A DNA stretch of 64,000 nt from Golubevia sp. BC0850 (Eukaryota > Basidiomycota > Exobasidiomycetes > Golubeviales > Golubeviaceae), in contig JAAVVG010000032.1 of assembly GCA_012976225.1 (NCBI GenBank), positions 62,001 to 126,000 on the forward strand. The letters run 5' to 3'. The position numbers and the translations under genes were made by a program. The notes below the pieces were generated by a model. That model was not told where the DNA came from, did not search any database, and worked only from the letters and a program-made list of their open reading frames with translations. Below, piece after piece: positions 8,072 to 59,891 of the stretch; within the stretch, counting starts at the first letter, position 1; every line of letters starts with the position of its first letter.

Positions 8072-11000
8072 TTACGATCCACCATTGACCTTGTCTCTGA
8101 GAGTTCCCAAGAACTGCATATACGAATTGCTCTGTTCGAACCTGTCCTCGATGAGCTGAGATAGAGCCCAGAGTCTGAGAGAAGGTTCACCATCTTCTTT
8201 GATGATGTATAAATGAGGACGGTAAGGTCCTCTACGCATCACACGGATCTCATCGACAAGAGTGTTGACTCTCTGGTTCATCGAGTTTTGCAGAACTGGG
8301 AGCGTGGTCTGAGGAGAGAGGGAAAGGTAAGAAGGTCGAGAAAAGGAGAAAAGAAACATCAGCATCGACTTTCACCAAAACAATGTTACTCGGTAATTCC
8401 AACTCACCTTTCCACCTTTCAAAGCAGCGTAGTTTGGAGCATCGAACACATCGACGCAGAGCTGAGGAACTGCTTCCCTTCCAACCCAGAGGAATATGTT
8501 TTGACCATCTTCGATAAGATAGAGACCGTGCCTCTCCAGCCTCTCCGAACTCAAGTTCAACTTCTGAGGGAAGATAACCTTACCGAACTTGGGTTTCGAA
8601 ACGACTTCTCCATTCTCCTCGTTCTCGTCTTCCTCTTTGATAGTGTTGGATTCCGCTTCTGAAACAGCTTGACGAGTTCCGGCTTCTGGAGCCATGTTAT
8701 GAAGACAGTAGAAGTTCGGATGAAGATACGGGATCAACAATTGAGTTGGTAGAGTAGTGAGGAGTGCTTGAGCGTAGGCTCTTAGATCTGAAGGGATTTG
8801 AGGAGAAGCTCTAATTCCGACATGCTTGAGGAGAGCTAAGGTTAAGATTGGAAGAAGGTTCATGTTGGAGGCTATTGAGAGTTGAGGGCTTGCTCCACTT
8901 CCAGCTGAAGTCATAGTAGCTTTGTAGGTTGAGAAGATGTCTACTAACTTGTTCATCAGAGCGTCTCTTGCGTCTTCCAATCTGTGATGAATCGATCTTT
9001 CGACCGCCTTGTTTGCTAGAAGAGTGATGATAGCGATTTGATCTGCCGAAGAGTAGAGTTCGGAAAGGCTCGAAGTGGTTGGTAGAGCCAAGTTGGTGAC
9101 TCTCAATCTCCTTTCTCCGAATGAGGTCGAGTGCATGACTACTGATTGGAAGACTACAAAGGGCTGGTTGATGGTCTCCTCGATCTCACATTCGATAGCG
9201 TAGGATTGATCTAGTGGCACAGCTGGTAGAGCCAGAAGATCGGTAGACCTGACGAAGAAGTTCCCGTGGAAGCTGGTTGCACGAAGACCCTTTGTCATCC
9301 TCAACCTGAGGACGGCTTCGTAGCAGATCGGGGAAGCTAGGACATGAGCAAATTCGTGAGCGAACTTCTTGGAGTCCTCTTCTCTACCAGCATGGAATGC
9401 AGGGTAGAAGTAAGTCTGTCCACCAGTGTAACGTGGAAGACAAGAAAGGGTAGCGACGTCGTTGTAAGCTGCTCCGAAAAGCCACATGTCCACCGAGACT
9501 TGAGACCTTGAGCAATCGATTGGGAAGGTCTTGTAGAACGTCGAAGCTGCTTGAAGTAGCTGACTCTCCTTCGATGTTCCGAGTAGCTTTGGATCTTCTC
9601 GGTTCTTGAGAGCTCCAGGTCCAACTGAAGGAAGGGAGGCAGTGAGACACATGATCTTTCCTCCAGTTGGTGAGACCAACTTATAGGCCGCTTGAAGGGC
9701 TGCTCCTAGAGCTGACCCGACGACGTTGTTGTCTGCGAACATCTCGCCGAGGCGAGAGAGAAGGGATTCGATTCCGGCTCTGCCTTCAGTCAAGTTGACG
9801 AGGAGATCGTGAGGTTTGGGAAGAAAGACGTCGTCGAGGTCCGATACGACTAGCATCTCTGGTTCAGTGCTTCCGACCTGAGCAGACAGAGAAGGATGTT
9901 GAGTCAGGAATGGCCATCTTTCCCTTGTCCTGACATTCAGTCCTCGGCATCTCTTGACTCACAGGTAGACAGAAGAAATGCAAACTGGTATCGACTCCGA
10001 TGATACAGACTCTAGTCCTGTCATCGGCGTTGGGAAGCTGGTCCAAAGTTTCCAAGATGGTCTTGGCAGCGACAGAGACCATACCACTCTGGATAGCTGT
10101 ATGGGAGACATCTATGAGGAAGGTGTACACTGGAGGTTGAGGTGGACGGACCTGGAGGAGCAAAAGCGAGAAAGACGTCAGTTGAAAGGCTGATGGAGGG
10201 CATGCCTCTCACTTCAACGGTCGCTGAACAACGGTCACTGAAAAGTGTTTCTGTGATTTCTGTACTCACCATGTATTCTCTAGGAGCTACGAATTCAACT
10301 ACCGAGTGGTTCAACTCGTGTCTCTTCCACCTATCAGCTGGCTGATTCTTCTCCTGATCCCAGTCAAAGAGCTGAGGCACTTCGTTACTAATATTGCACA
10401 TACAACACTTCCATCTGTTTCCTCCCTCAATGAAAGTGACGTAAGGATTGATGTAAGTTCTACATCTTCTACACCTTGCAATCACTGTATCAGTAACTAG
10501 AGGGACCGGTTCGTCTCCATCTTCTTCCCGCACTGAGCGATAAGGTGATAAGATCACACCCAAAGGTAATTTGGACTTTTGAAGCAATGAGTGAGTAGTT
10601 GGAATGGCGTTCAAAGTTGAGCGATGATAAGAAGGATGAGCGTTGGCCTTTGGATTGGAAGAGATGCAGGCATTTGGAGGTAACTGAATTGCAGGTGGAC
10701 CTTTCTCTAGATCGGCTATTTGAGGAAGAGCATTTGAGAGATTGACAGTGTAGAGTGGGTTCTGTTGGGAGGAGGAAGTCGTGAGGAGCGGAGGGTCAGA
10801 ATCATCGAAAGCAGATAGACTTGGACTCGCGATGCACTCCTCGCGTGATAAAGGCCTGTTGGTTGGGCTTCCATAAGCTTGAACGAGTGAGCAAAGCCAT
10901 CGCAGATCGATCTGATCCTTCTGAAGGGTGACTTTCACAGCTCCCTTCCTCATTCAGTCCAGCATCTCTCCTCCTGCCACATCGGTTCCCAGTTTCGCCC

Positions 11001-12384: not shown

Positions 12385-15300
12385 ATGAAGGATCAGAACC
12401 AGCTCAGGTTCCTCAAGGTGAGTAGAGCAGTAGATTTTTGAAGAGTGCTGCTCGATTCTTCCTCGTCTTCTATCTCTTACTCTCTTCCCTTCCTCTCCCC
12501 TTGTCTCTCTATCTTATCCCTCTATTCATAACTTCTATCTTCGTAGCTGAAGCCAGTCTGCGTTGCACTTCTAGGTCTCACTTCAAAGCCGACTTCACCT
12601 CTTCTTGCTACTTCCCTCGAAAAGCTTCTATCAGTCTTACGATCGCTTCATACCGAATCGATCCCATCTTCAACTTCAGTAAAAGGAAAAGAAAGACAGA
12701 AATCAGAAGAAGAAATTGGATTATCACCCTCCTTAATTCACTACGTCTTCTTTCCTTTATCTCAACTTTTAAGATCTTCTCCCTCAACCCAACCTTACTC
12801 AAACGGAATCGGTTTACCAGATAGAGTCCTCGAGCTCATCTTCGAATGTCTAAGTCATTTAGCCAAAGACTGGTGGAGAGTATGGATAGAAGAAGAGGAT
12901 CAGATATCTCATTCAAATCCTTCCACAAATTCCAATGGACCTCCTGCCTCATCTTCGTCTTCAAGTCGGAATGGTCCCTTCAATAAGAATTCTATACAAT
13001 CTGAGTCTGAGTCTACTCCCTTCTCAACCAGATACATTCCTTCGAAACCTCTTCCAGATCCGAACCTTCAAGGAGCAAAACGACCTGAACTAGTAGATTT
13101 GAAGAAAAGATATCAAGTTTGGGAACAGTTGTTGATCTTAGGAAGTATTAGTCTAGGTGGAAGTCCAAACAATCCAAATCCAGATACTAAAGAAAATAAA
13201 CAGAAGAAGGCAAAGGAGAAGAGCGACGAAACGAGACTTTCGATCTTGAAGTTTCTGAATGAACTACTGAGACCTCGATTTCAGGAAGCTAGTCTGAAGT
13301 TTGCTGATCTAGAGGGATCAACTTCTCGAGGAGTAACGACGGAGAAGAAACAGGAAGAACTAAGTAAGGATTGGGAGTGGGATGGGGTTTCTGAATTGCC
13401 TTCTCTGGATGAATTCGATTCTCAGCAAGAAGTCAAGCCTTCTCTCTCGGACAAAAACGATGAGAAACTCAAATCTCAACCAAACAGCAACGCACCAGAA
13501 CCAACACGACAACTTCAACTCTACCCTTCTTCAAACCACCTTCTATTCTCTAGATCTCCGACTCCAAGAGGTGCATTATCGCATCTCCTCACTACGTGCC
13601 TCAATCTATCCTGTGGAATCTCGAAATCTCAACTCAAAGCTGGAGTAATTTTTCAGTCTCAAGTCGATGGAGAAGGAATGCAGGAACTGAGAGAACTAGC
13701 ATTGGTTCTTTCAGGTAGGGTTCTAAGAACGTGGATCGGGGGTGTCAGAGAAGTCGAGGTCGATGCTAGTTGGGATTGGAGCTTGGATTTCAAATTAAAC
13801 GAGAACCAATCCATTCAAGAATCATCTCTTCATGCCCTTGTGACATCGAATAACCTGGGAGCTTCTCATCTCTCCACTTCAACAACAACGGAAGCCTCAA
13901 GTTTGAGAGTTTTCTTTCCAGGTTTCATCTCTTCTATGACTCGATTGCTTTCAACTCTGCCTTCAGGATCTGGAGCTGGAGTTGGTCATGAATCAAACTT
14001 TTCAAATCCTCAAAACTCAAAGAACTTCAAACCTGCTACAGCAAAAATGTGCTCAATCGCTTTAGACCAAATGAGAGAACTGATTCATAGATGTCTGGGA
14101 GATGAGCTTACTAAGGAAGAGAGGGTCAAGATCCAAAATGAGTTGCATTTGGGGATTCAGATTAATTCAGTTCAAAGCAAGATTTCTTCTCTGGAAGATT
14201 TCGCTGGAATTAAGCTTTCAGATGAAGAGGGCGACGAGGCTTCAACTTCCAATCCAGCTCAGTCAACGCCAACTTCGGATTCATCTTCACAGATGCATAA
14301 AAAGGAGAAAGGCGTTCCAGTCGTCAACTCATTCCTGCAGTCTTCTTTCCCTCCTCTACATTCCTCTTTGGTTTCTCTATCTCCTCTGATCAGCCACTCT
14401 TCTCCTCGAGTTCAATCAGCAATGCTTCTTTTAGCTTTTGAACTTCTATCGAAATGTGAAGATACTCTGCGGATAGGGGATGTAGTCAGAAGTCGAAGTA
14501 GAGCGTCAAACAGAGGTCCCGGAGCTTCTCGAAACGAAGGAGAAGGAGAAGAAGTGGCTGAACAGCACTTCTCAGTAGAAGCGGAGGTTGAGGAATTGGG
14601 AAGGGAGAAGAGCAGTATCAACTTGCTTTTGGGATGGATGTTGGATTTAAGTTCTAGTTCCAACAGCTTTTCAGACAATCTTTCAGAACTCGGCAAGTTT
14701 TGCTCGAGGCATCTATTGGTCTCCTCTCCGAACTACAAATCCAAGCAGAGTCTACTTCTTCAAGTTTTAGGCTTAGCCCAATCGTCGCTCACAAGGCTTC
14801 CAAAAGCTATCAAGAGTAGAAAAGGAGATGCGGTTATCAGAGAAGCCGGACGAATTAAAGCGATGTTATATCTCATTGGTGGAGATTCAGATCCAAGGCA
14901 CTCTGTTTCTGCTGAATTAGAGGAAGCGAGAGAGCAGTTGGCAGCTTTGCTAGGTCCTAAAGGAACAGTTCAAGACTGGGATTCTTCTCTATTGGATTGT
15001 CTATCCCTTTCTCTTAGTCCGATGGCTCGGTCTAACACTACCACTGGGGACACAGAAGAAAGCAAAGATCAGACTGGAGATGGCTGGTCACGGTCTTTCG
15101 AGAATCTAGAAGAAGATCCGAAGAGTGGCAGAGAGGTGAGAGGAATGTTTCAAGAGATTGGAAAGGCGATTGGGAATCTACTCCTCCAGAAGGTTAAGAA
15201 ATCTGAGTCGCAGAAAGAAGAAAAGAATACGAAAAAGAAAGCTAAAAAGGAAGAGGAGGAGGATTTAGAGAAACTTCTGCATTCGGTTTATCATTTCTTG

Positions 15301-17664
15301 GCCATCTCTTCTTCGTATCGTAGCGTTCGACTCAAGAACGACGCCTCCAATTCCAAGCTGTCACTGACGGCAGCTTTATTCGCTGATGAGATTATCAAAG
15401 GAATTGCTTTTATTCTTGCAGATGAGAGACTCAATCTTATGCCTGGTAGAGAGGGCAAAAGACTCAGGAAGATTTCTCAGAAGCTTGGGAAGGAAATTCA
15501 AGATTGGGTCTCAAGGATTTGGGAAGAAGATGGTGCCGAAGGAGTCGAGAACGATGACCGAAGGGAGGGCAACAATTCTGCTTCTGGGGCAGGAGATCAA
15601 TTGACGAAGAGGGTCCAAGATCAAGTGGCCAACGACACTCAGATCCAACATCTCAGGGGAATGGATGCTTTCCCGAACCAAGGCAGCAATCAAACCAACG
15701 TGGAAGAAAGTTCTTTGAGACTAGGTGGAGCTATAGATCTGTCTTTCGTCAAACATGCCAAGATGTCTTCAAGCTTTGAAACTAAACCCCTAAGCATCAC
15801 TCCGATTCGTACCCATCTTTCATCTCTCAATCTTTCTACTTTACTTCAACTATCGATTTTGGCCTCTTCCTCCAAATTACTGGGCCTCAAGTTCCGACCT
15901 TTTCTTCAAAGCCTTCTGTATCCTCTAGTAGCTTCTCTAGCAGCAAACTCATCCAACTCTCTAATTCCAGATGCTACTTTCAGAATCCTTAGCACGATTG
16001 CAAATGAGAGTGGATACGGAGACTTAAGGAATATGATCATGTCAAATAGTGATTGGATCCTAGGAGAAAGTAGTTGGAGACTTGTCAACGGATTGGGTCA
16101 GGCTCTCGAAAGCAGTCTACGGATCGCTGCCTACTCTTCTGGTTCGAACATCTCTAACGACATTCAGCCCAGAGTCTCTCAAGTTTCAGTCACATCTCTT
16201 CGAAGTAGCAAGCAACAGCAAGATTTCCTTCCTCTGGTTTCAGCTTTGACAGCTCCTCTAGTCTTGGTCCAGACACTAAGACTCCTTGGGTCAGAAGCTT
16301 TGCCTCTTGTCGAAGATGCTGTCGACGAAGTTCTAGATGCTTTGGACCGTTTTCATGGAGAGGAAGCTATCTGTGCAGGTCTGTGGAACGTTCTCGATGG
16401 TATGGTGGATTGCATGTTAGAAGACAAGCAAAAGGAAGGACTAATCGACCAAGGCGGCAATGAGAATCCTTCTGAAGCAAATCCAACGAAGGCAAAGTTG
16501 AAAACCAAAACTCCTCTAGAGCATCTGGAAAGATGGTTCAAATCAAGATCAGGAGTTCAGAAAGGACAAGGAAAAGGAAAGGCTGTCGACGGAGCCGACA
16601 GTGAGCTACCTCCAGCCTTCGATCTTCCTCCTAATTCAGATGAAGATGACGATGGGAACAGAGGAGACACTCCAGCCCCTCCTGCAACCAGGTCTCAAGA
16701 AGTCTTGATCTCGATCATCTCCAAATCAATTCCGTTCCTTTCGCATGCTTCTCCCTTCATGCGAACCAAAGTTTTACGGCTGATCTCAAATGGGGTTGAA
16801 ATCTTCTCCACCTATCCCAACTTCAACTCCAACACTACACTCAGTCCGAGTGTTCAGAGATCAGAGGATCTCTTGCCAATCTTGAATCGTGCGTGGCCTC
16901 TGATTCTCAGTAGGTTGGGTATCAACTCTTCGATTCAATTCTCGGATCTCAAACCTGCTTTAAGCGAAAGGGAAAGACAGAAGGAGAAACGCAAGCTGCA
17001 ATCTCAAAGCTCTGAGATGGAGCCAGTAGTCTGGCTGGAGTCAATCAAGCTTCTCAACACGATTTCAAAGTACGTCAACGAGTTCTTGGGGAAGAAAATA
17101 GCCCAAGAGGCTCTGCCTCGAATGACTCTCATCTTGGACAGAATCGGGGAAAATCTTCTACTTCAAAGGAAAGCAAGTCTCAATTCAAAGCTCATCAATC
17201 AAACAAGTCCAACATTTTCAACTTCAACTGCTTCTCCTTCTTCCTTAAACTTCTACCGGATTCCGTCTAATTCGCTTCAATCTGAGATCTTCATCTCCAT
17301 CTTCAAATGCATTTCTTCAAATTTAACCTCTCAAGGTCCTTTGTTCTCAGAAGAAACTGCTTTTCAAATCTTGACCAATCCTTCGTTTTTGGTGGCTTTG
17401 GACGTTAGGCAAGATCCAAAGGTCAGAGCTGAGGCTTTGGAATTATTCAGGAATTTAGGGAAATTGAATCCTGATGCTGTTTGGTTGGCTCTTCATTGCA
17501 TTGGGAGTAAGGAAAGGGGACAGGTTGGGATAGCCGCAAGTGGGTGGTCGAAAATCAGCTGGTTGAAAGGTAGAATGGGAGGGGATGGGTTGGTCCTGGA
17601 GAAGAGCGAAGGTGGGGAGAGAAATGAGATCAGGGGTATTTTGAATGGATTGTACTCTGGGTGA
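12385..17664 (+). CDS. TTI1: TTI1, TEL2-interacting protein 1 (TTT complex)
   Basis: Exon 1 is 12385-12417 and exon 2 is 12547-17664, giving 1716 aa. Tti1 works with Tel2 and Tti2 to mature PIK-related kinases such as TOR and ATM/ATR types. The spliced start reads FLKLKPVCVALLGL, the typical TTI1 opening, and IHYVFFPLSQLL and VLELIFECLSHLAKDWW follow near residues 80-120. The rest is helical-repeat (HEAT-like) sequence broken by charged and Ser-rich loops. Near the end PFMRTKVLRLISNGVEIF, RAWPLILSRLG and VWLESIKLLNTISKYVNEFLG are characteristic, with NPDAVWLALHCI at the C-terminus. It is one of the longest uninterrupted coding exons here (5.1 kb). Identity rests on pattern, since the family diverges fast. 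Confidence 0.85.
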
Positions 17665-18060: not shown

Positions 18061-18890
18061 TTATTCACTACGAGCAAAACCGTAATCGAAAGCTCCTTTC
18101 ATACCGAGACGAAGCAGGCGTGGAAAGTTTGTAGAAGCGACAGCGTCAGCGTAGACCGTTTCAGTGAGAGAGCGGGAGAGAACTACCGAATAAGTGTTTT
18201 ATTCTTGAAAGGGATAGAAGTAGGATGCAAAAAGAGGGTGGGAGTACATTCAACAGAGAGCTGGATCTTTCCGTGGGACATCGATTTCACTTTTTCTGCT
18301 GCAGAACTTCAAAACCTAGTTGTGGGAAGTGGGTTTGGCTTGGAATTATTGATAGCCTTGCCAGAGAAACTGAAGATTAACGTAGCTGTGGGATAACGGG
18401 GACTTGGTGTCGTCTTACGAGTCGTAGCTGGAAGTGCAGCCCGAGCAGATGAGATGGAGGAATGAAGAGCCATCACTTGAGTGGTCGGATGAGTTTGAGT
18501 AGTTCGAGCTAAATAGAAGTAGGTAGATTGGATAGTGGATTTGAATGCTGGATACCGGCTGTAGGAATCGAGCGAAGGGAGGTCGATGCTTGAGGGGGAA
18601 AACCAGTCTGGATGGCTAGAGGAGGTGCATTTGGAGTTGAAAACGGCTGAGTGAGGATCTTTGAGCTCTCGGAAGCTGGGCTTGGAGACAGAAAAGGGTT
18701 GATTCCGTTTGCGATCCCATTGGCGTTCAAGCTGTCGACTGATGATTTGGGAGTTGGGTTGTACTCGCAAGCCTCGACTTCGTTTCCGTGGGTAACCATT
18801 CCTTCTGTTCCATTTGAGATTTGGCGTTTGCATCCTTTGACGTTTGAGGCTCCTGTTTGTTGTTGTTGTTGTTGTTGTTGTATTCCTGAG
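18061..18890 (-). CDS. Unrecognised minus-strand gene or pseudogene, poly-Q bearing
   Basis: Coding signal is clear but no single model closes. Going 5' to 3' on the minus strand, a frame with eight Gln codons (the 18857-18880 trinucleotide run) leads into KGCKRQISNGTEGMVTHGN and a Ser/Pro-rich stretch. Then a different frame carries LPSLDSYSRYPAFKSTIQ, TYFYLARTTQTHPTTQV and SFSGKAINN. A final exon, ending at 18061, reads LTETVYADAVASTNFPRLL then LGMKGAFDYGFARSE and stop. The switch near 18610 has no good GT-AG pair, so either an indel has broken the gene or a non-standard splice is used. I do not recognise the family; a regulator or lipid-droplet-like protein are guesses only. It converges on TTI1 and the TRP1 relic. 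Confidence 0.4.
18857..18880. repeat. TGT/ACA trinucleotide run (poly-Gln codons on minus strand)
   Basis: Eight perfect copies of TGT on the plus strand. On the minus strand, in the frame that leads into the neighbouring coding signal, they read as glutamine. Confidence 0.85.
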
Positions 18891-19484
18891 GAAAAGCCGT
18901 TGGTCTTTTACCGTCCAGACAGTCCCAAGCGCTGGCTCTCGAGCTGCCTCCGCATTCATCTCTGCCAACTCCTCAGCGCTAGCACCTTCGCGCTAAATCG
19001 CAAGCGCCTCGTTTTCTATGGCTCGGACAGGTAACCTACGTCTGCTGCGAGATGCTTCGTGATTCTTAGAGAATTCGATATCCTGCTTTCGCGTCGTTTT
19101 GGTCGTCCTGACGAAGGGGCCCACCGAGGGAGTCCTTGGGGCTGCGGGTTACGTTCTTCAGCTCGGCTTTGCATTTCCCAGTATTCCAAAAATTCCAGTA
19201 GCTGCTCGGGACGTGTCTGAAAATTTCCCAAGGACTCCTCTGGAGAACCATATTCCATGGGCACAACTGAGTCGAGGAGTGCAAACAACCTCCCGATTGC
19301 ATGCCGCTCGAAAGAGAGGATCATCTTAAAGGAGGTGATCATGCCCGTTGACAGCTCTCTCGGGGGAAAGGCTAAGACTATTTCTGAAGTCTTTGCGTTC
19401 TTTGGGGGAAAAAAGCAAGCGTCTTGTCAGACCCAAACCTCTCACTTTACGACGTTGTTGAGGACAGAGATTTCTCACCTTTTC

Positions 19485-20104
19485 TCAGGCAATGATTCTC
19501 GAGAAATATCGTCCTTTGAGGAGGTTCAGTCTCCCGTTCAACAGACGTAGATTGTCTGGTCCGTTGATGATGTCCCTGAGCTTCTGAACATTTCCACTCT
19601 TGCGCAATCGGTCACAGAAAATTGGCCTTTGGATTGGATGCTGTACTTGAATAACGTGTCGAATGTATTGAGCCTCTAGCACACTGGAGAGATGGAAGAC
19701 ATATAGAGCTTCAGAATGTGCTGTGCAGGGTAGTTTGTGTGGTGGATCTGAAAGATCCATCGAGTGTGCAATGCACAGAACTGGAACTGATGTACAATCA
19801 TGACTCACTACTCACTGATCACAGTGAATCTGAGAAGCCGGGCCTAGTTTGAGGGCTGTTCCCATCGATCCCGAGTCTATCGCCACCAAATTCCCACCTG
19901 GAAAAGAAGCCACACCTGGTAGTGCAGGACCGTTGGGTTTTGCGAGACAAGTATCTCGATAATTGACGACTTGATGGAGATATCATAGATTGCCGGTGTT
20001 CTGTAGGTTTCTCTCTTCTGCAGGGGAGCCGCGGAGCTTGAGGATAGAAGGCAGAATAGAAGAATGAAGGGAAGTAGAAAGCTGATAGATCGACCTGCAA
20101 TCAT
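19485..20104 (-). CDS. Secreted-like Cys protein, duplicated-locus copy A
   Basis: The ATG at 20104 opens a clear signal peptide (MIAGRSISFLLPFILLFCLL then SSSSAAPLQKR, ending in a KR dibasic site). A second frame gives VVNYRDTCLAKPNGPALPG and, at the exon end, QIHCD. The donor at 19815 (GTGAGT) joins to 19683, where VLEAQYIRHVI, FCDRLRKSGNVQKLRDIING and LLKGRYFSRIIA then stop at 19485. Copy B (50895-51737) has matching IHCDH-VLEVQYIKRLI and MLKGRYTRRMM blocks, which is what supports these exons. The signal-peptide frame and the YRDTC frame do not join without an indel or an unseen intron, so the gene may be broken. Three cysteines are shared with copy B. No known family was recognised. It lies head-to-head with the F-box-like gene at 20596. 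Confidence 0.5.
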
Positions 20105-20269
20105 TTCGAGCGGAGATATGATGAAACGAGAAGTGGAAAATTGAGCTCAAAAGTAGAAAAAGCGTAGAAAGTGTGTCCTTGACCAGCAAGAGCGAAAGAA
20201 GAAGAAGGAAGGGGTGGGGTGGGGGGGGGGGATGAGATCACAGCGCCGAGTCCCTCTTATAGTTTTCAA

Positions 20270-22198
20270 GTCGAGAGACTCAAAAAAGATTGTTGCCCCC
20301 AAATCTGACTTGAAACGAGGTCCACCTTGCGTCCTGCTCGAAATGGCGTAAAGGAAAAAGGGATGAGATACTCACTGATGGACGCCCCGATGGGATGGGC
20401 GTCAATCCACTTTCTGGAGGTTCAATTCTATGTTTTCGTACCTCTTATAAAGCTTTGATATTGGGAGATTTGTATAAGTCGCCATCGTTCAGAGAAGAAG
20501 ACCAATCTGGACCGCGTGGCCGGCTTTGGCGTTAGATTTCTACTGAGTCTCGAACTTTGATCATTTCTCTTCCTTCCTCTCCTCATCCCATCAAGATGCC
20601 TTTGTCAATCCTCTCAGGAAAGTTACTTCCGGGCGACCTATCAAGGTGAGTAGAAGAGAGACATGCTGGTTTGATGGGTTATTGTTCTTATTCGCCCCCA
20701 TTTTGTCCAATTGCAGTGAGATCATGAATTACATCTGGACAGGAAACGAGGGACGTCTAGCCTACAAGCAGGTCTTCTGTCTTAGCGGCTCCAAACTCTG
20801 CACTGAAGAAACATATCGAAAAAGAAAAGACGTGATAGTGTGGGACTGCCTCCTCTCTCTTTCTCGGACCTGTTCGACTCTTCGCAAGCTCTGCCTACCT
20901 CGAATGTACGGAACGCTCACGCTAGGAAACTGCAATATGATAGGTCAGATCTGGAAGTCTCTACAAGCAAATTCTTCTCTCGGAGCCTATACTCACACCT
21001 GCTAAGTGGAATATCGTCCGTTTCTCTGGCCAAACCCTATCATCCCATCAGAGGCAATTGGCAGGCTGTTCATCGCCCGTGATATGGCTGCCACGATCGA
21101 GGAGCTGAATGTTTTGAAACCAGGAAGGATCCAGTTTGATGAGTAATGTCATCTCAGAAGCTATTCGTCAACTGGTCCGGACGGAAAAGGGTTCGATGCC
21201 AACATCACATCTCCCCAACAGTTCAAGCTAGCCCTCGAAGAGATCTTCGGCTCCTTGACGAAGCTCGGGGAACTTCAATGGCATAGCGATCTCGTTGCTT
21301 TCTACTCCTCAATGATTCATCGGCTGGAAGCCTTGACTACGCTGGATACTCTTTACGTCGCATTCTCTGCCTGCGAAGAGGATTATTTGATCCCACCAGA
21401 GTCTCTCCCTTCCGAAGGACAACCACCACCAAGTGAGTTTCACAAGCACGTCAAATTAATCCTGTTTCGCTGACGTGCTCACTGCCTTTCTTCAGCGCCC
21501 GTTTGGAAGCTCTCCAAAAACCTCTCGTGTCTAGGAGTCGCCAATTTAGGAGAGGGTCTCCGAGATGTCATCGGTCTCGACAGGGAGCCAGGTACTGGGC
21601 TGACGGGCGAGAGAGGTCCACTTTTTGATCATCAATGTAGTGCGTTCACCAGGTTCGTCAATTCTGCGGAGAAGATCACCTCAATCGATCTCGGCGGAAT
21701 GGGATGGGTGGGAGAAGAATGGGAGCGACCGGACGTTCTCGCCTTGATTCTTCCTACTCTCGCTTGCATTCCAGTGAAAGTGAGAGAATTCGGTCTACCA
21801 GGTTGGAGAGAATGCACTATGGCCCTTCATTCAGCCATCAAGGAGCTGGCGGAACGTCATCACGTTCTGAGTGGAGAGGTCATCCTAGCCTTTGGAAAAG
21901 AATGCACAGAGACGCAAGATCATCCTCTAGCTCAAATGGCAGGTCTACTTCAAGGTGGAATAGGAGGTTTGTCAGCAAGGCGAGATAAAACGCTGGTGGC
22001 AAGCTTGAGGGTGAGTGGATCTCTCGTCGGTGAGTTTCCTATACAACTTCTCTCAGGCTCTGCTTAATCCAAGTTTTTTCATTTTTTTTCCTATAGGTCT
22101 GTCTCTCTGATGGTTGGAAAAAGTCTGATGAGGCTCGGGAGCAACGGGATTCTGTTGAAGGATTCAGATTCCACTTCTCTCGAAAAATTCCTGGCTGA
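20270..22198 (+). repeat. Duplicated segment, plus-strand half of copy A
   Basis: The upstream block (about 20310-20590) and the F-box-like gene match the segment at about 51920-53660. Shared landmarks in order are GAAACGAGGTCCACCTT, AAAGGGATGAGATACTCA, ATGGGCGTCAA, AAGCTTTGAT and CTGGACCGCGTG, then a 50-nt first exon of equal length in both. The minus-strand partners (19485-20104 and 50895-51737) are also related, so the whole unit was duplicated; the copies are about 31 kb apart in the same orientation. Confidence 0.75.
20596..22198 (+). pseudogene. F-box-like protein, duplicated-locus copy A, two in-frame stops
   Basis: Exons 20596-20645, 20717-21432, 21496-22010 and 22097-22198 add up to 461 codons in one frame, with stop codons inside exon 2 at 21003-21005 and 21144-21146. 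The start MPLSILSGKLLPGDLSSEI looks like a divergent F-box (LP.dL..EI...W), followed by LSLSRTCSTLRKLCLPRMYG. The later part has leucine-rich spacing (SLTKLGELQWHS, HRLEALTTLDTLYVAFSACE). F-box proteins are substrate adaptors of SCF ubiquitin ligases, but the match is by pattern only. Exon lengths and splice phases agree with copy B except for the last exon, which copy B lacks. Because the frame is otherwise whole, decay is recent, or the stops are spliced out or read through. Confidence 0.55.
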
Positions 22199-34090: not shown

Positions 34091-37000
34091 CTACTTCCTT
34101 CTGTCTCTACCTCCGCCTCCCGAGTTTCCGTTCCACGATGATTGAGGACCGAAGTCAACGGGCTTGATTACCCTTTCGTCTCGCTCACGTGGAGGCTTGA
34201 CTCGGAATTCGGACAGGATGCAGACATGACTGTTGGAGGTTGAGTGAAGTCGATTCAGGAAAAGAGGGGAGTGGAGGGTAGGAAGAAAGGGAAAGTGAGT
34301 GAGCGGAAGGAAAGGAAAGAGTAAACGAAGTCAGCTTTGTCAGATGGAAAGTCCGATTCTCTGCTCAAATTTCTCGAGTAGGACCTGTAGAAAAGCTTCC
34401 AGAAGGAAGATTGGAAGTAGATCGAGGTCGCTGAAACTCACTCAGAAGGGAAGTGAGCATTTGGGAACCCAACGACTTTCTTGAGGTACTCCTTATCAAC
34501 ATCCCCCAATAAACCAGTCACAGTCAAAGAATTATGAGAGAACCAAATGTAATCAATGACTCCTTTGAAATCTGGAGTATAATTGGTAAAAGAAAGGACC
34601 TGTCCATTTCTACCATTTGAGTTGCCATTGGAATTAGAATTGGAATTTTCCGCATCAATATCTGAATAATTCAAATTGTCAGGATAAGAACTCTTGAAAT
34701 TCCAACCATGAGTAGCCCCATTCTCTGTATAATTTCCATAAGTATAACCCAAGAAGTCTTCATGAGCACCTCCGACTTTCCCACTTCTCAAATATTGATG
34801 AACACCAGAATCAGGAGTTGAATTGAAATCACCACAAACTAGAGTTGGGATTTGATTCCAATGACCATATTTTGGAGCTGGAGGATAACCTTTCTTGACA
34901 TTTAACTTTTGAGGGAATTTAGAGAAACGTTCTGAGATCTTAGTTAATTCATCAATTAACATTGCAGTTTGAACCAGTTTGACATCTTTTTCTTCTGGAT
35001 CCCAATGAATATGAGTGTTAGCTACGATTAATCTTGAGCCTGAATCTTTGTTTTCTAGAAGAGCGACGATAGCGATATTGTCTTTAGTCATAACTCTGTT
35101 GAACATGTCTTCAGTCTTCTTGAAATCATCTCTTCTTAATGCGATTTGATTGAATTCAATGACTTGTTGTTCGATTAAACTGAATTTACTAGACTTGAAG
35201 AAAGTAGCGCAACCATCAACATGTTTCCTTTCGTCTTCTCTCATAGTTCTAGCTCTTGATTTTGGACTAAAAATTCCTGAATATTCTGATGAGGAAGATA
35301 AATGATGTAAGAAGTAATCTTCATATTGTTCAACATCGACTTCTTGAAGACAGCAGATATCAGAAGAGTAGGACATGACTTCTTGTAAGATGAATTCTTT
35401 TCTGTAATCCCAAGATAAAGCCCAAGAGGGAGTATAACCATGCATTTGAGAAGTAGCCATTCTTTCGCATAGAACATTATAAGAGAGGACATTGAAGGTT
35501 TCCACTGGAAGTTCGTTCCCTGAAGCATCTTTCTGAGGAGGAGGAGCATCCGTTTCGAGTGAGATCCATTCTCTTTCAGGAGGTGGAAGGGGCACTGGAC
35601 AGCTGTCTCGTAAGTAATTGACCAACGAGATTGTTCCTTCTTTCACTATGAGCTCTCGAAGATTCTGATTCAGCGGATTCCCCTCTAAACCTAGAATTTC
35701 CAATTGATGCAGAAACCCAAGTTCGGAAGGTAAATTGGACAGCAGATTATCGAAAAGGAAAAGTTCTCTTAAACAACTCAACATCCCGATTTCTTCTGGA
35801 AGTGAGCTTAGCTTATTCCCAGAAGCATCTAGTACTGTTAAATGTCGAAGTTGAACGATTGAGGAAGATAAAGAAGATAGAGAATTGTGATTGATGAATA
35901 ATGAAGTTAGGAAGTCGTACTTGAAGATTGCATTTGCTAGGTTCTTCAAGCCTAAACCACCCATATCGATTGTCGTCCAAGTTTGCTCTGAATCCTCGGG
36001 TGGGTTCGAAGAGAGAGGTTTCCTACCTCTTCCACCTGTTCGTCCAATTGTTCCGTTGGTATCTCCTTTCGAATTCCCAGACTTCTTCTCTTCTTCACTG
36101 CTTCCATTCTCTTTCTTGGAAGGAAGATGAAGTCCATTCGCCGCTGTGTGAGGAAGTTGAACTCCTCCGCCTTTGGTTGGATCTTGGATCGTGACTGCTG
36201 AGGAAGTTGCGCTTCGAGCTGCAAGAGCGGCTGCTCGGGCGTGATGATGAGGAGAGGCTGACTGTCGAGAGATCTGGAATTCGAAAAGTAGAGAAAAGAA
36301 AAGAATCAGCTCGCGCTCTTTCGAAGCTCTCAAACTCGATCACAGAGCAAGCGGGAGAGAAGGTACGAGATACAGCTCTTGACTACCAGCTCGCCAGAGT
36401 TCTTCTCTTCTTCCTCGTCCATCTTGTGAATCCAGAGAAGTAACGAGATTTACACGACCTTCATCCCCGCGTCGATCCCGGCTCCTCCCTTCCTTTAGAA
36501 AATGGAAGAGCGAGATAGGGAGGAAGGGCAACGATAGTCGTTGCCCAACGACGCTCCCGCTTCGTTCTTCTCCTTAACCCCGCCCAAGATTGACAGATTC
36601 TTTGACTTATCATTCTAGCTCTCATCCAGACGAGCTCGTTCTCATTCCCTCCTTCCACGTTGTGACTCACCTCAGCTTTGAGCATCTGCTGACTCCATTG
36701 CGAGCAAGGTTGACCTTCAACATTATTAGCCAAACCAATATGATTTCCACCTCTACCATTCAAATGACTATTAGTAGTTGTAGAAGAACCATTAGAACTG
36801 CCCAACATCAAACCACCATGATTGCCCAAATTAGAATGATGAGGACTTGGACTACCATTCATGAAAGAATGACTTCCTCCTGCTCCTCCCAGACCGGATT
36901 GATTTGAAGGAGTAGAATGAGACTGATGGGAAGAATGTGAATGATGTAAAGGAGATTGGGATTGTAGTTGTGAAGGATGTTGAAGATGATGAAGAGCGTA

Positions 37001-41874: not shown

Positions 41875-42399
41875 CTACCATTTGTGGTGACAGCTGTCTT
41901 CTTCCTTTCCATCGTTTCCTCCATGACCATTATCCGGCGTGACTTGATCTGGTTTAGATTTTGGAGGAGATTGATCGCCACCTTTGACTGGTTTAGGCTT
42001 GGAATGCTGGTGCTCCTTCGAAGGATTAGATGAACCTTTAGGAGGTTGACCATGATGAGGCTCGTTTGGAGTAGATGAACCTTTAGGAGGTTGACCGTGA
42101 GGAGGCTCGTTTGGAGTAGATGAACCTTTAGGAGGTCGACCATGTTGAGGCTCTTTAGGAGGTTTAGTCTCTCCATTTCCTCCATTTCCACCCTTGTAGT
42201 CGCTGTCTTCTTCATCTTCTTCCTTCTCCCCTTTAGAATTTCCATTTCCACCGAACAGATTGTTTACAGTATTTCATACTCCTTCCAACAGAGATTGACG
42301 TACGTTTAATTCGTTGGAGTCTGAGTTGACGCTGATGGGAGCTGCCATCGTAAAAGAGACGAGGACGAGAGAGATGAGAAGGGATCTGTTGAAGAGCAT
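41875..42399 (-). CDS. Small secreted repeat protein with an in-frame TGA
   Basis: The ATG at 42399 opens a signal peptide (MLFNRSLLISLVLVSFTMAA then PISVNSDSNELNVRQSLLEG). After about 42 codons a TGA occurs, but the same frame then stays open for about 130 codons: FGGNGNSKGEKEEDEEDSD, three tandem 15-residue units of the form HGQPPKGSSTPNEP, a Lys/Pro/His-rich tail and a terminal HHKW before TAG at 41875-41877. The repeat periodicity and one shared frame argue that the two halves belong together. Splicing between a GTACGT donor and a weak GAG acceptor, stop read-through or recent decay are all possible. No family recognised; surface or secreted protein by composition. Confidence 0.55.
42020..42155 (-). 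repeat. 45-bp coding tandem repeat, 3 units
   Basis: Three near-identical 45-bp units inside the secreted protein gene, encoding HG(R/Q)PPKGSS(T/N)P followed by four variable residues. Confidence 0.8.
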
Positions 42400-50894: not shown

Positions 50895-51737
50895 TCAGTG
50901 GATAGTTGGGCGCTCCAGTAGCGATCGGCGGGCGGCGTGTAAAGGAGCGATGGTAGCCGGAGGTCTTGGTGAGTGACGTGTTGAAGCTAGATTGTCTTGC
51001 CGTTTGAACGTCTCTGGAGATAGAGGTTGGAGGGGCTTCGGTGGTGTTGACGAGGACTGTTCCTCTGCGGTCATCATTCGCCTGGTATAGCGACCTTTGA
51101 GCATATTCGTCTTTAGAAGGAGAGAGAGTCAAGAAGTCGATACGATTGTCAGTTCTGTGATCCCGAGCGGTGGAAAGTTTGGAAGACTTACTTCGCCATC
51201 GAGAAAGAGAAGATTCCGTCTTCCAGTGATTATGCTTTGTAGCTGTTTGACAAATCCTGGATTCTGCCTGACAACAATGCAGAACTTTTTTTCTGCAGGT
51301 TCGATAAGACGTTTTATGTATTGTACTTCTAAAACACTGAATGGGAAAGAATCAGGGATAACATTTTAACGCATGCCTTCATCTCCGCAATCATCTGCCC
51401 AGGACTCACTGATCACAGTGGATACCCGAAGATTCTGCCCCTAGAACATCTAAGGTAGCTCTCATCTCTTGCGAGGAAAGCCACTTCAAAGACGCTTGGT
51501 CATTCAGAGCTGCTAGTCCTGGCTGAGCGATTGGATTTGGTGAACGTAAGGCGCTCATTGTTGATGGGTCGAAACGTCCAAAGCAGACCTCTCGGTATTG
51601 CCGTATTTTCAAGGGTGTTTTACAGATGGTCGGGCCATCAGCTCCTCGAGCTTGAAGGGGAGCTGCGGTGATGAATTCTGAAAGAAGGCGAGGACAATTA
51701 CTCCAAAGAAGCCTGCTCTTGAAGTAGGTGACCGCAT
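50895..51737 (-). CDS. Secreted-like Cys protein, duplicated-locus copy B
   Basis: Candidate exons: 51737-51410, 51336-51192 and 51110-50895. The frame carries ITAAPLQARGADGPTICKTP, IRQYREVCFGRFDPS and SSGIHCD, then across the intron HVLEVQYIKRLIEPAEKKFC and QNPGFVKQLQSIITGRRNLL, and across a second intron TNMLKGRYTRRMMTAEEQ with a long basic Pro/Ser tail. Copy A shares the IHCDH-VLE.QYI, K.L..II.G..NL and LKGRY blocks but lacks the second intron. The ATG at 51737 opens a hydrophobic start (RAGFFGVIVLAFF) in a frame one base off from AAPLQ, so the 5' end is broken or mis-modelled. The start lies 502 bp from the F-box-like gene, nearly the same spacing as copy A. Confidence 0.5.
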
Positions 51738-51919
51738 TTGAGTGAGATAAAAGATGACTCAGAAAGAAATGAGAGAAGAAAGGAGTCTCGACCAGCGAGG
51801 TTGAAGAAGAGAAAGAAGATGGAGGAGAAGGTAGGGATGGGGAAGAAGGGGAAGAGTTGTCCAGTCGCTCTTGTACTGTTTCCAAATGAGAGACTAAGAG
51901 TGATGTTGGGCCCAAAATT

Positions 51920-53660
51920 TCCAGATCGAAACGAGGTCCACCTTGCATCTGCGGAGTTGGCGTAAGGGAAAAGGGATGAGATACTCAGTAATAGGTGACA
52001 GGCGACGCCCCCATGGAATGGGCGTCAAAGGATTTTCTTGGGAGTTTGGCTACACTATATACCTCCACACCCCTTCTGAAGCTTTGATCTGTACAACATG
52101 AAGTGCTATGATGTCGCCAATCCTGAGGAGGAAAACCCTGCTCTGGACCGCGTGATCGGCGTTGGCGTTCTACTGAGTCCTTGACTTTGATCTTCCTTTC
52201 TTCCTTTCAAACCATCACTCCTCTAACAACATCCAAAAAATGTCGACGATAATTCTTAACTGCAAAATTTTTCCATCGGATCTCTTCAGGTGAGTCGGAA
52301 TGGAAGCATCTTGCTATCTGTCAGCTGTCAGGAACTCACCTCTCACAATGCCCCTAACCGCCCTTCACAGTGAAGTGCTTGACCACGTCTGGACAGGCCG
52401 AGAAGATGAATCTGAGAAGTGGGGGTCCCTTTTTGCTCCTGTCAGTGAACAAGGGTCTGAGCTTGACTTCGATGCCATGCTTTCACTTTCTCGGGCGTGC
52501 TCGACGATTCGTTAGCTCTGCCTCCCTCGCATCTTCGGTACCATCTGGATTTGGAAATGCAAAACCATCGGCTTGCTATGGAGAGCTGTCCAGCTCAATC
52601 CGTCACTTGGATCACACATCCACACCTTTCGAGTTCGTTTCGAAACGAAGGTTTGGCCAGAGCACCTCATACCTTCTGAAGCCATGGAGAGGATGTTCAC
52701 GGAACGGACGATGGAGACATTGGAACGAGAGGTGGAAAGCCGGAACCCTGGAGCCTGGAAAGATAGCAAAAGAGAGTTCTGGCGTAACCGCTTCAAAGGA
52801 CCGGATGGTCATGGGTACGACACCAACATCAAAAATCCTCAAGACCTCAAGTTAGCTCTGGTCGAGATCTTTCAGTCTTTCACCAAACTCAGAAAACTTC
52901 ATTGGGGCACGGAGAGTCTGCCTTTGTTCTCTTCTATCATCAAGCACCTGGAGCAGCTGGATTCACTTCAAGTTCTCACAATCAATCCTGCCGCCTGCGA
53001 AGAAGACTACTTCCTCCCTTCGCCTCCAGAAGGCAAGCTTAATCCTCCTAGTGAGTAACTTCTCTACTTGGCCGTCCAGAAAAGATTACCGCTTACTGAT
53101 CATCTTTTCTTGCTCCTCACATTCCATCAGCCCCTCTGTGGCTCCTTTCTAAGCATCTTGAGCAGCTGACAGTGATGCCTCTGGGCCCTGGGCTGAGAGA
53201 TTGCTCTGGAGTCTTGGACGAAGATTTTGCAGCAGATGACCACCTCCTCCAGAGACAGATCCAAGCTTCCGTCAAATGCGTCAACCTAGCAAGCGACTTG
53301 GATTTCTTGGACTTGTTCAGAGTTGGCGGATTCGAGGGAGCGAGGGACGTGCTCGCAGATTTTATCCCGGCCACTCTCCCTCGACTTGCTTGCATTTCCA
53401 GCATCGTGATAACAAGAGAAGGCCTGGATTCGCTATCCCCAAGCTGGGAGATTTGGGGACCTCCCATCAAGGCTCTGCACCCCAATCTAGCTGCTCTCTG
53501 GAATCGGAAGGGCTCTTTCAAAGCAGAAGTCATCCAGGCTCTTGGAAAAGCAGCTGGGGAAGAGGTGGATCATCCGTTATCGAAGTTGGCGGAGCATTTG
53601 AAGAAGTCAGAGGTCGCTGAGGAGATGGCTGAAAATTGGAACAGAAAATATTCAAGCTGA
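51920..53660 (+). repeat. Duplicated segment, plus-strand half of copy B
   Basis: Counterpart of 20270-22198: the same ordered landmarks upstream (GAAACGAGGTCCACCTT, AAAGGGATGAGATACTCA, ATGGGCGTCAA, AAGCTTTGAT, CTGGACCGCGTG), the same 50-nt first exon, then a related but diverged F-box-like gene. Confidence 0.75.
52240..53660 (+). pseudogene. F-box-like protein, duplicated-locus copy B, one in-frame stop
   Basis: Exons 52240-52289, 52371-53050 and 53131-53660 sum to 420 codons in one frame, with a single TAG at 52513-52515. Copy A has a Lys codon (AAG) at this place, so one base change explains it. Apart from that the frame is intact: LFSEVLDHVWTGRED (F-box-like start), LSLSRACSTIR before and LCLPRIFGTIWIWKCKTIG after the TAG, LNPSLGSHIHTFRVRFETKV, HLIPSEAMERMF and leucine-rich segments such as LEQLDSLQVLTINPAACEED. 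A charged C-terminus ends WNRKYSS. Either a young pseudogene, or the TAG lies within an unrecognised intron. Function as an SCF adaptor is inferred from pattern only. Confidence 0.55.
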
Positions 53661-53817
53661 AGCCTCTGAGGATCACGGAGGCGCTTCATTGTCTTTTTGC
53701 GATCAATGTAAACGACGAGATGCACAACTTTGCGATCAGATGTTTTGAAATTCTATAGTTGAGTTCTACAAGAAATTTTTCCAGTTTCAGCATCCTGGCT
53801 TCTTGATCGCACCCTCC

Positions 53818-57803: not shown

Positions 57804-59891
57804 ATGCCAGGAGTCAATTCTATCAAATTACTGACTGGTAAGCAATCACTCAAAGCTGGAACCATGTCCAGTGGAAGGAGGAAGAGAGATAGAGAGAGAG
57901 AGAAGTAGCTTGGCTTGTCCTTATCCCGCTTCTTGCCATTGAACCTCTCCATCTCCTCAGGTAACAGTCATCCTGAACTTGCTCAACAGGTAGCAGATCG
58001 GTGAGATGAAAGGAGAATGAATAAGAGCGAATAGCGGAGGGAGCTATGACTGAAGCCTCTCTCTACCACCTCTCTCCAGTCTCGGAATTCAATTAACTCC
58101 CTGCGTCTGTAAGAAGTTCGCAGATCAATCGATAGACGTTCGCATTGGAACTTCAGTAAGAGATGAAGATGTCTTCGTCTTACAAACTGGCAATTCACCT
58201 TTCGTAGATCCAAACGATTCCTTAATGGAATTGTTGATCATTCTTTCAGCCTGTAAAACAGCCAGTGCTAGAAGGATTACAGCTGTCATCCCCGCTTTCC
58301 CTTATGCAAGACATGACAAGAAGGACAAATCAAGAGCTCCAATCACTGCTAAATTGGTGGCTAACATGATCACGGTGGCAGGAGCAGATCATGTTATCAC
58401 TATGGATTTACATGCAAGTCAAATTCAAGGTTTCTTTGATATTCCGGTGGACAATTTGACTAGTGAACCTAGTGTTGCTAGATGGATTAGGACAAATGTT
58501 GAAGGTTGGAGAGATGCTATCATCGTTTCTCCTGATGCTGGTGGAGCTAAAAGGTGAGTTACTGGTTGAGAGAGGGAGGAGCAGTCAAGAGAAAGTGAGA
58601 GGACGGCAAGCATCAGAGACACGAGAAGGGGAATGGATTTGAGCTTTCCTCGAGGACTGGAACATTCTTATTTATAGTCTGAAAGCTGCTGGGTGGCTCG
58701 AGAAGCGATTTCATCGAACTGTGTTTTGCATGTTCTCTTATCTCTCCCAAACCTCTCATCCTTCCCCATCTCGCCCCTCCAGAGCAACCTCTCTAGCGGA
58801 TCTCATAGGAGTAGATTTCGCGCTTATCAACCGCAACCGAAAACGTGAACAGAACAAGCGTATCCGAGCAGCTCAACGTTCAGCCAAAGGAATTCTATCC
58901 ACTCAATCTTCATTCTCAGACTTAAGATCAGGTTTAAGCACTCCAATGGAAGCTTCTCTTGCTTCACTTCCACCTCAAGGATCTACCAGTACAAGCGCAT
59001 CTAGATCAACCAGTATGTCAACAGAAGATAATGGTAGAATCCCACGATCCATTTCAGATGATTTAGGTAGAGTCTCTTTAGATTCTTCAAGCTCTGCTTT
59101 AGAAGTTGGAAATGGAAATGGGACAGCAACGGGAAGTAGGCCTCAATTATCACAAATAGCAAATGGAGTTCATCAAAATGAATCTGGTGAATGGGTAGTT
59201 CATGATGAAGATGGTAGAAGAATCACAAGTGGTGGAAGTAGATCTAGGGAAAGAAGAGAAACTTATAAAAATCCTATTGGTTCCAATTTTAATTCCAACT
59301 CTACTTCAAATATCAGGGAAGAAGAACAGAAAGTTAATGAAGATGATGGAGAAGAAGAAACTAAGATGGAAATCTTAGTTGGAGATGTTGCTGGGAAAGT
59401 TGCAATTTTAGTGGATGATATGGTTGATACTGGCCGTACTTTGGCTTTGGCTGCTAAAACTCTTGAAGACGCTGGAGCTGCAAAGGTGTATGCTATTATT
59501 AGTCATGGGCTTTTGAGTGGCAAATCTGTGGATTTGATTAAGAAGTTGTGTTTGGAGAAGTTGGTGGTGAGTTTCAAGAGCTGGGAAGGTCTTCTTTGAA
59601 AGCTCTGCCTCAGTAGAACGTTTCTTTTGAATCTAATTACTCATCTTTTGTCCCATCCGCTCTGTTCCTCTCATTTTCTTTCTCTCTTCTCACGCCACTC
59701 TTGAATTTTCTCTACAACCTTCCTTCTCTCAGGTGACGAACACAGTTGCAAACACAGCCAATTCGGTTGCTTCAGGAGGTAAATTAGAGATTATGGACAT
59801 CAGTTCTGTCATCGCTGAAAGTATTAGGAGAACTCATCATGGTGAGAGTATTTCGATACTCTTTAGAGAAGACGCAGCTGCTGTCTTCTAG
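57804..59891 (+). CDS. PRS5: Ribose-phosphate diphosphokinase, PRS5-type with long insertion
   Basis: Exons 57804-57837, 57961-58000, 58080-58553, 58783-59566 and 59733-59891 give 496 aa. It makes PRPP from ribose-5-phosphate and ATP for nucleotide, His and Trp synthesis. N-terminal half: [60 protein letters not shown] (ATP site), [35 protein letters not shown]-terminal half: [20 protein letters not shown] is the PRPP loop, then ISHGLLSG and VTNTV. Between them (about residues 210-375) lies a Ser/Asn/Glu-rich insertion, the non-homologous region seen in yeast Prs1 and Prs5, which links Prs5 to cell-integrity signalling. Which paralogue it is rests on this insertion. Confidence 0.9.

Follow-up and report, generated by a model that had tools for sequence, protein, structure and literature searches.

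A back-to-back pair of secreted-protein and F-box-like genes stays linked across deep divergence in Golubevia and may form a functionally coupled module

Why should a gene for a secreted-looking protein and a gene for an F-box-like protein stand back to back, and do so twice within a short stretch of one fungal genome? We addressed this question in Golubevia sp. BC0850, in a window of 64,000 nucleotides (contig 25, 62001-126000) of a genome of 25.77 Mb in 64 contigs; its 34 matches to the fungal transcription factor domain PF04082 fit a fungus. Positions are those of the window unless another contig is named. The original prediction had placed two head-to-head pairs in this window, and that is where we found them, with 491 nt between the two start codons in copy A and 502 nt in copy B. 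The reading that we favour, tentatively and with somewhat less than even confidence, is that they belong to a long-standing two-gene module of a single fungal lineage, a back-to-back pair with a constrained spacer that has co-diverged, has mostly decayed and is functionally coupled. Taken by themselves, the anatomy of this module is very probable and some functional coupling of the partners is rather probable. Elsewhere, the window holds conserved ordinary genes at 8372-10953, 13678-17664, 34438-35964 and 58730-59599 (Sec23/Sec24-type, TTI1, CCR4-type and phosphoribosyl synthetase-type genes), and short local direct repeats are present at 42023-42161 and 60958-61091 (49 bases at 90%, 62 columns at 81%).

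In copy A the secreted gene starts at an ATG at 20104 on the minus strand and the F-box-like gene at an ATG at 20596 on the plus strand. Exon 1 of the secreted gene (19816..20104, minus) was placed by spliced alignment to a contig-62-type reference, with a score of 611 versus a maximum of 65 in 40 shuffles; it encodes what by eye is a signal peptide, MIAGRSISFLLPFILLFCLLSSSSA, followed by APLQKR, and the frame of the gene changes near 19965. The core exon (19485..19683, minus) reads VLEAQYIRHVIQ...FC...NLRLLN..LNLLKGRY. Position 19485 had been taken as the end of this gene, which does not hold: what stands there is an in-frame TGA (19485-19487), and fragments akin to the remainder of the gene in the contig-62 copies run on over 18309..19342 (minus) in open reading frames at 19016-19342, 18509-18799 and 18309-18968 that share no single frame. 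The spacer, a likely shared promoter (20105..20595), aligns with that of copy B over 20191-20581 and contains the motifs GGGCGTCAA at 20397 and ACGAGGTCCACCTTGC at 20315-20330. On the plus strand, the F-box-like gene has exon 1 at 20596..20645, exon 2 at 20717..21432, with in-frame TAA codons at 21003-21005 and 21144-21146, and exon 3 at 21496..22198, where 22198 is the end given by the original prediction; our alignment of exon 3 reaches 21953 across a doubtful internal gap of 45 nt, and the 3' end is uncertain.

Copy B is built in the same way, with the ATG of the secreted gene at 51737 (minus) and that of the F-box-like gene at 52240 (plus). Exon 1 of its secreted gene (51410..51737, minus) shifts frame near 51690, within the signal-peptide stretch, relative to its sister on contig 2; the core exon (51192..51336, minus) reads VLEVQYIKRLIE...FC...NLLFLDGE, and the last recognisable exon (50895..51110, minus; TNMLKGRYTRRMM...) has its end from the open reading frame. 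The spacer at 51738..52239, again a likely shared promoter, aligns with copy A over 51808-52208. Exon 1 of the F-box-like gene (52240..52289, plus) encodes MSTIILNCKIFPSDLF, exon 2 (52371..53050, plus) carries an in-frame TAG at 52513-52515 and exon 3 (53131..53660, plus) runs to a stop codon; at the DNA level, similarity to the contig-2 copy stops at 53661. The F-box-like genes of both copies thus have at least three exons and in-frame stops. Both A and B are decayed, and neither looks functional.

The resemblance between the two copies is nonetheless real. In a whole-window self-comparison the spacers of A and B share 68% identity over 422 columns (E 4.5e-24), and the proteins share 41% (F-box-like) and 39% (secreted cores). 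The minus-strand similarity is better than chance: the copy-A minus-strand reading frame reaches other loci at E 2.7e-18 and 4.0e-15, and a query from the secreted gene on contig 4 picks up both window copies, at E 4.9e-6 (B) and 0.0015 (A). It could be argued that the whole pattern is an artefact of chance similarity or faulty assembly, and sequencing mistakes might in theory account for the stops and frame changes of either window copy; we consider this exceedingly improbable, since the spacer E-values stand at 1e-24 and below and those of the protein matches far lower, since the lesions differ by copy and sit within otherwise conserved stretches, and since secreted cores almost equal to those of contigs 22, 55 and 14 occur in further public contigs (source 'lgn'), in parts that do not cover the window lesions. 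Chance similarity as such is refuted by the recurrence of the pair across the genome.

What did not stand is the view of the two pairs as one duplication, of A into B. Judged by sequence, the closest relative of copy A is a pair on contig 62 and that of copy B is a pair on contig 2, and the partner trees assign A and B to different subfamilies, so that a simple local duplication is rejected. Between B and its contig-2 sister at 168 kb the spacers are 92% identical, and identity lies at 88-97% in windows over 51490-52239 (secreted exon 1 and spacer), at 66-77% over 51040-51489 (the side of the secreted core) and at 74-97% along the F-box-like gene. The whole comparison (51040-53660 versus contig 2, 167.5-170.1 kb) is a mosaic of 66-97%, lowest in the secreted core and in parts of the C-terminal half of the F-box-like gene, which gene conversion could have produced.

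What kind of proteins are these? The secreted protein has a signal peptide, as seen by eye, in several copies, followed by a Kex2-like KR in the A and contig-62 type, and a core of the form [VI]xExQY[IV] ... FC ... N[LI]xxLDxxxNxxKg with four invariant columns in 13 sequences. The secreted proteins of contigs 14, 26 and 55 have an RRRC stretch, an alanine-rich hydrophobic stretch and a P/S/T-rich linker, and end in the common motif NL.SLLSS.SS.F. In the F-box-like protein, readable N-termini (MKIATLDLPEQVTS, MSTIILNCKIFPSDL, MPLSILSGKLLPGDL) show no hydrophobic leader by eye; the contig-22 protein has 440 residues in three exons and an F-box-like start, LDLPEQVTSRILDLIW ... LLSLSLVSKALRAACLPRLFGTVHL, interrupted by an insertion. 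Its assignment is that of a putative, degenerate F-box with a sub-threshold match: PF00646 and PF12937 are the commonest weak Pfam matches of 10 members (four each, best E 0.018), and the N-terminal piece of the contig-22 protein scores 13.6 bits with PF12937 versus a cut-off of 24.3, the whole protein giving no match.

The original prediction had recognised no family in either protein, and our searches agree, with none found in Pfam, in PDB or in 5.8 billion proteins, a search that reaches only relatives sharing short exact words. By this same search the F-box-like protein had zero matches, and the secreted protein had four, all of them fragments that over the shared part are by eye identical or almost identical to the contig-22, 55 and 14 copies. 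No Pfam family passed its cut-off, and no RNase T2 domain was found, in the contig-22 secreted protein or in 13 aligned cores. A pox-protein match on the secreted side (E 0.011, 14.6 bits versus a cut-off of 30), ferritin matches (E 0.18 and above) and an UNC-45 match (E 1.3) were attributed to chance. With a mean pLDDT of 40.9 for the secreted protein (5 sequences) and of 44.9 for an F-box-like piece (3 sequences), AlphaFold2 models were too poor for a fold search.

If the pair is a unit, it should recur as one, and it does. The secreted family has 14 loci on ten contigs (13 clear, 1 weak): A and B, contig 2 at 168, 302 and 440 kb, contig 62 at 623 and 760 kb, contigs 4, 11, 64, 22, 26 and 14, and contig 55 at 901 kb. 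Every one of them has an F-box-like neighbour in divergent orientation, although at 623 kb on contig 62 this partner is only a remnant, recognised by a DNA match of 209 columns; on contig 26 the F-box-like partner (bases 1-816) is truncated by the contig start. None of six secreted-side queries across the genome, run at E limits of 0.01, 0.1 and four times 1, turned up a secreted copy without a partner. As the weak contig-11 member also escaped these queries, they may likewise have passed over a diverged copy that stands alone. The secreted genes of contigs 4, 11 and 64 were first spotted next to F-box-like genes: that of contig 64 was later reached by a query from another locus (E 0.13), that of contig 4 only by a query from contig 4 itself, and that of contig 11 by no secreted-side query, its membership resting on an aligner score of 101 versus 65 for the highest shuffle and on a profile E of 0.036. 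The other 11, query loci aside, were found with queries from other paired loci.

On the F-box-like side, queries with the copy-B piece and the contig-22 protein gave 26 loci, or 27 with the remnant at 624 kb on contig 62, and about 13 of these have no divergent secreted partner. In 12 of these solo regions no secreted-family match with E below 1 lies within a flank of about 1-1.5 kb; the thirteenth is a fragment at 255 kb on contig 14, behind the secreted gene of that contig. Near-identical local duplications (98.6-99.9%; three of four inverted) containing an F-box-like gene or part of one, and no secreted partner, are found on contig 62 (759-769 kb), contig 12 (41-48 kb), contig 14 (255/259 kb) and contig 55 (902/928 kb).

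Few of the pairs appear to be in working order. By sequence reading, two of the 14 look intact, those of contigs 22 and 14: both genes of contig 22 read clean, and contig 14 is counted as intact because two frame changes that the aligner marked in its secreted gene were re-read by eye as an intron. The remaining 12 have lesions or are not readable as intact. The contig-2 pair at 168 kb has one stop in its F-box-like gene and one frame change in its secreted gene, the copies at 302 and 440 kb have several lesions, and at 760 kb on contig 62 the secreted gene has no ATG and an early stop and the F-box-like gene an internal loss. At 623 kb on contig 62, in turn, the secreted gene is clean across 265 residues next to the F-box remnant. 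Gene models of the distant copies come from a purpose-made spliced aligner, and their lesion calls are less certain than those made in the two window copies, the 168-kb copy of contig 2 and the copies on contig 62.

Have the partners of each pair stayed together throughout? Protein trees of 13 pairs (the 623-kb remnant omitted) show the same groups for both partners and disagree solely in the branching order within contigs 14, 26 and 55 (one node); two deep splits common to both trees have low support in one of them (0.19, 0.38). The distance matrices of the partners correlate at 0.875 over the 13 pairs and at 0.62 over 10 dereplicated pairs, with none of 20,000 permutations as high in either case, and pairing is kept between groups at a protein identity of only 16-53%. 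Trees and distances therefore give no sign of partner exchange. Duplication of the pair as a unit would yield agreeing trees by itself, and thus it is lasting linkage, rather than interaction, that this agreement demonstrates.

Both genes also carry traces of selection. Between B and the contig-2 copy dN/dS is 0.41 in either gene. Across all comparisons the F-box-like genes range over 0.28-0.89 (11 pairs of sequences) and the secreted genes over 0.35-0.41 (5 pairs); both reading frames were therefore under constraint, and whole-gene positive selection was not seen, dN/dS being below 1 throughout. As a separate observation, dS climbs with distance from the spacer in most comparisons, not in all. 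The spacer diverges by 0.08 per site between B and the contig-2 copy, versus a dS of 0.37-0.38 for the whole genes and of 0.19 and 0.26 in the gene parts adjoining it, and by 0.25 per site between A and the contig-62 copy, versus 0.67 and 1.09 for the whole genes and 0.54 and 0.72 in the adjoining parts. In these two comparisons it thus evolves 2-5 times more slowly than synonymous sites, which suggests a shared promoter. The 16 bases of ACGAGGTCCACCTTGC have three exact matches in the genome, all in pair spacers, and the single site with one mismatch falls in a fourth; with up to three mismatches there is no enrichment (166 sites versus 362 for the reversed control). GGGCGTCAA occurs in 7 of the 14 pair loci, in the stretches examined and without a shuffle control, with reversed orientation in contig 26. 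The idea that the two genes act or are regulated together gains from both results, the co-divergence of the partners and the constraint on the spacer, and neither of the outcomes named beforehand as speaking against it, unpaired genes in all other copies or a minus-strand similarity at chance level, was found.

Linkage may of course persist without coupling: an ancestral pair with a two-way promoter could have been copied as a unit of DNA and have decayed by birth and death, its proteins having unrelated roles. That most copies are broken, that F-box-like genes duplicate by themselves and that agreeing trees are expected from unit duplication alone all fit this account, as does the abundance of F-box genes in general, since the F-box profile has at least 148 matches genome-wide (150 of 336 candidates scored). 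This is many for a 26-Mb genome. Several of the F-box matches are adjoining and nearly equal. We nevertheless place this account on the unlikely side: the six queries found no unpaired secreted copy, yet solo F-box-like copies are common, two independent comparisons show tighter constraint on the spacer than on synonymous sites, and pairing was retained down to 16-53% protein identity.

We return to the coupled module and to how it might work. The spacer would act as a two-way promoter and the F-box-like protein would be part of an SCF ubiquitin ligase; this protein and the secreted factor would affect one another or work on one process. The F-box-like protein might, for instance, remove or restrain its own partner, or an incoming partner protein, inside the cell, in the manner of linked toxin-antidote or self/non-self pairs. 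For the two to meet, one being secreted and the other a cytosolic adaptor, the secreted protein would have to stay in the cell or come back into it. A coupling that dispenses with contact can also be imagined, in which the secreted protein acts on a host, a competitor or the cell surface while the F-box-like protein contributes to the same programme intracellularly. The signal peptides of several copies, the KR site and the constrained spacer favour such a co-regulated, outward-facing pair, and in Fusarium the pairs Avr2-SIX5 and SIX8-PSL1 are described in PMC10942635 as functional head-to-head units of divergent effector genes with shared promoters. We judge it rather unlikely, as the F-box-like partner, unlike those of the Fusarium pairs, has no evident signal peptide and as dN/dS below 1 gives no indication of whole-gene selection for change.

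Toxin-antidote or self/non-self action in particular is unlikely on present evidence, and more specifically we find it quite improbable that these pairs constitute a toxin-antidote or self/non-self family of fungi whose secreted partner, a harmful or recognition factor, is sent to the proteasome by the linked F-box-like partner. The two tightly linked genes that such a system entails are seen at every secreted locus, with the weak member and the remnant included. A strict toxin-antidote reading is weakened because the clean secreted gene at 623 kb on contig 62 adjoins a mere F-box remnant, and by our own criterion no intact toxin candidate should stand beside a lost antidote; a rescue of this gene in trans by other copies is possible.

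Known systems offer analogies at best. The adjoining peel-1/zeel-1 genes of C. elegans encode a toxin and an E3-adaptor-like antidote; their proteins are not known to be related to those of the Golubevia pair. This system is named in PMC12680543, which describes KLMT-1/KSS-1 of Caenorhabditis tropicalis, linked and fast-evolving toxin-antidote genes with a hard-to-see F-box in one partner. The likeness extends to an F-box family that exceeds the known antidotes and to duplication of the module (PMC12680543); there, however, the toxin is derived from a tRNA synthetase and its binding and degradation were studied directly, whereas the Golubevia partner has a signal peptide, the organism is a fungus and the pair is known from sequence. 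In the self-incompatibility of plants a secreted S-RNase is genetically linked to S-locus F-box (SLF) genes (PMC4106197, PMC2686617), where a single multi-allelic locus holds an RNase and several SLFs (PMC4106197); our 14 divergent pairs, in contrast, are dispersed and one-to-one, and no RNase domain was found in them. The Fusarium effector pairs share with ours the divergent genes and the common upstream block, but both of their members are secreted effectors, whereas here the F-box-like partner is apparently intracellular and the copies number 14. The closest working analogies are the C. tropicalis F-box antidotes and S-RNase/SLF, and the closest fungal layout the Fusarium divergent effector pair. 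None of these systems is matched as a family, with no RNase domain found and the partners not both secreted-looking, and toxicity is a candidate property.

A search of open-licence PMC text by title and abstract start yielded, among the papers listed, no earlier description of a fungal secreted/F-box pair. F-box antidotes are reported in worms and rice (PMC12680543), F-box proteins are reported to neutralise a linked cytotoxin in plant self-incompatibility (PMC4106197), and the worm paper proposes that F-box antidote systems may arise in other taxa (PMC12680543). Even without toxicity, Golubevia holds two lineage-specific families, undescribed in the literature so searched, that have remained linked through deep divergence. 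With two pairs that read as intact, many decayed copies and a fixed partner for each copy, this genome would be a natural place to test for fungal F-box antidotes, and if the toxin-antidote reading were true, the F-box-antidote logic of worms and plants would have had an independent origin in fungi, where it would have spread as a unit of two genes.
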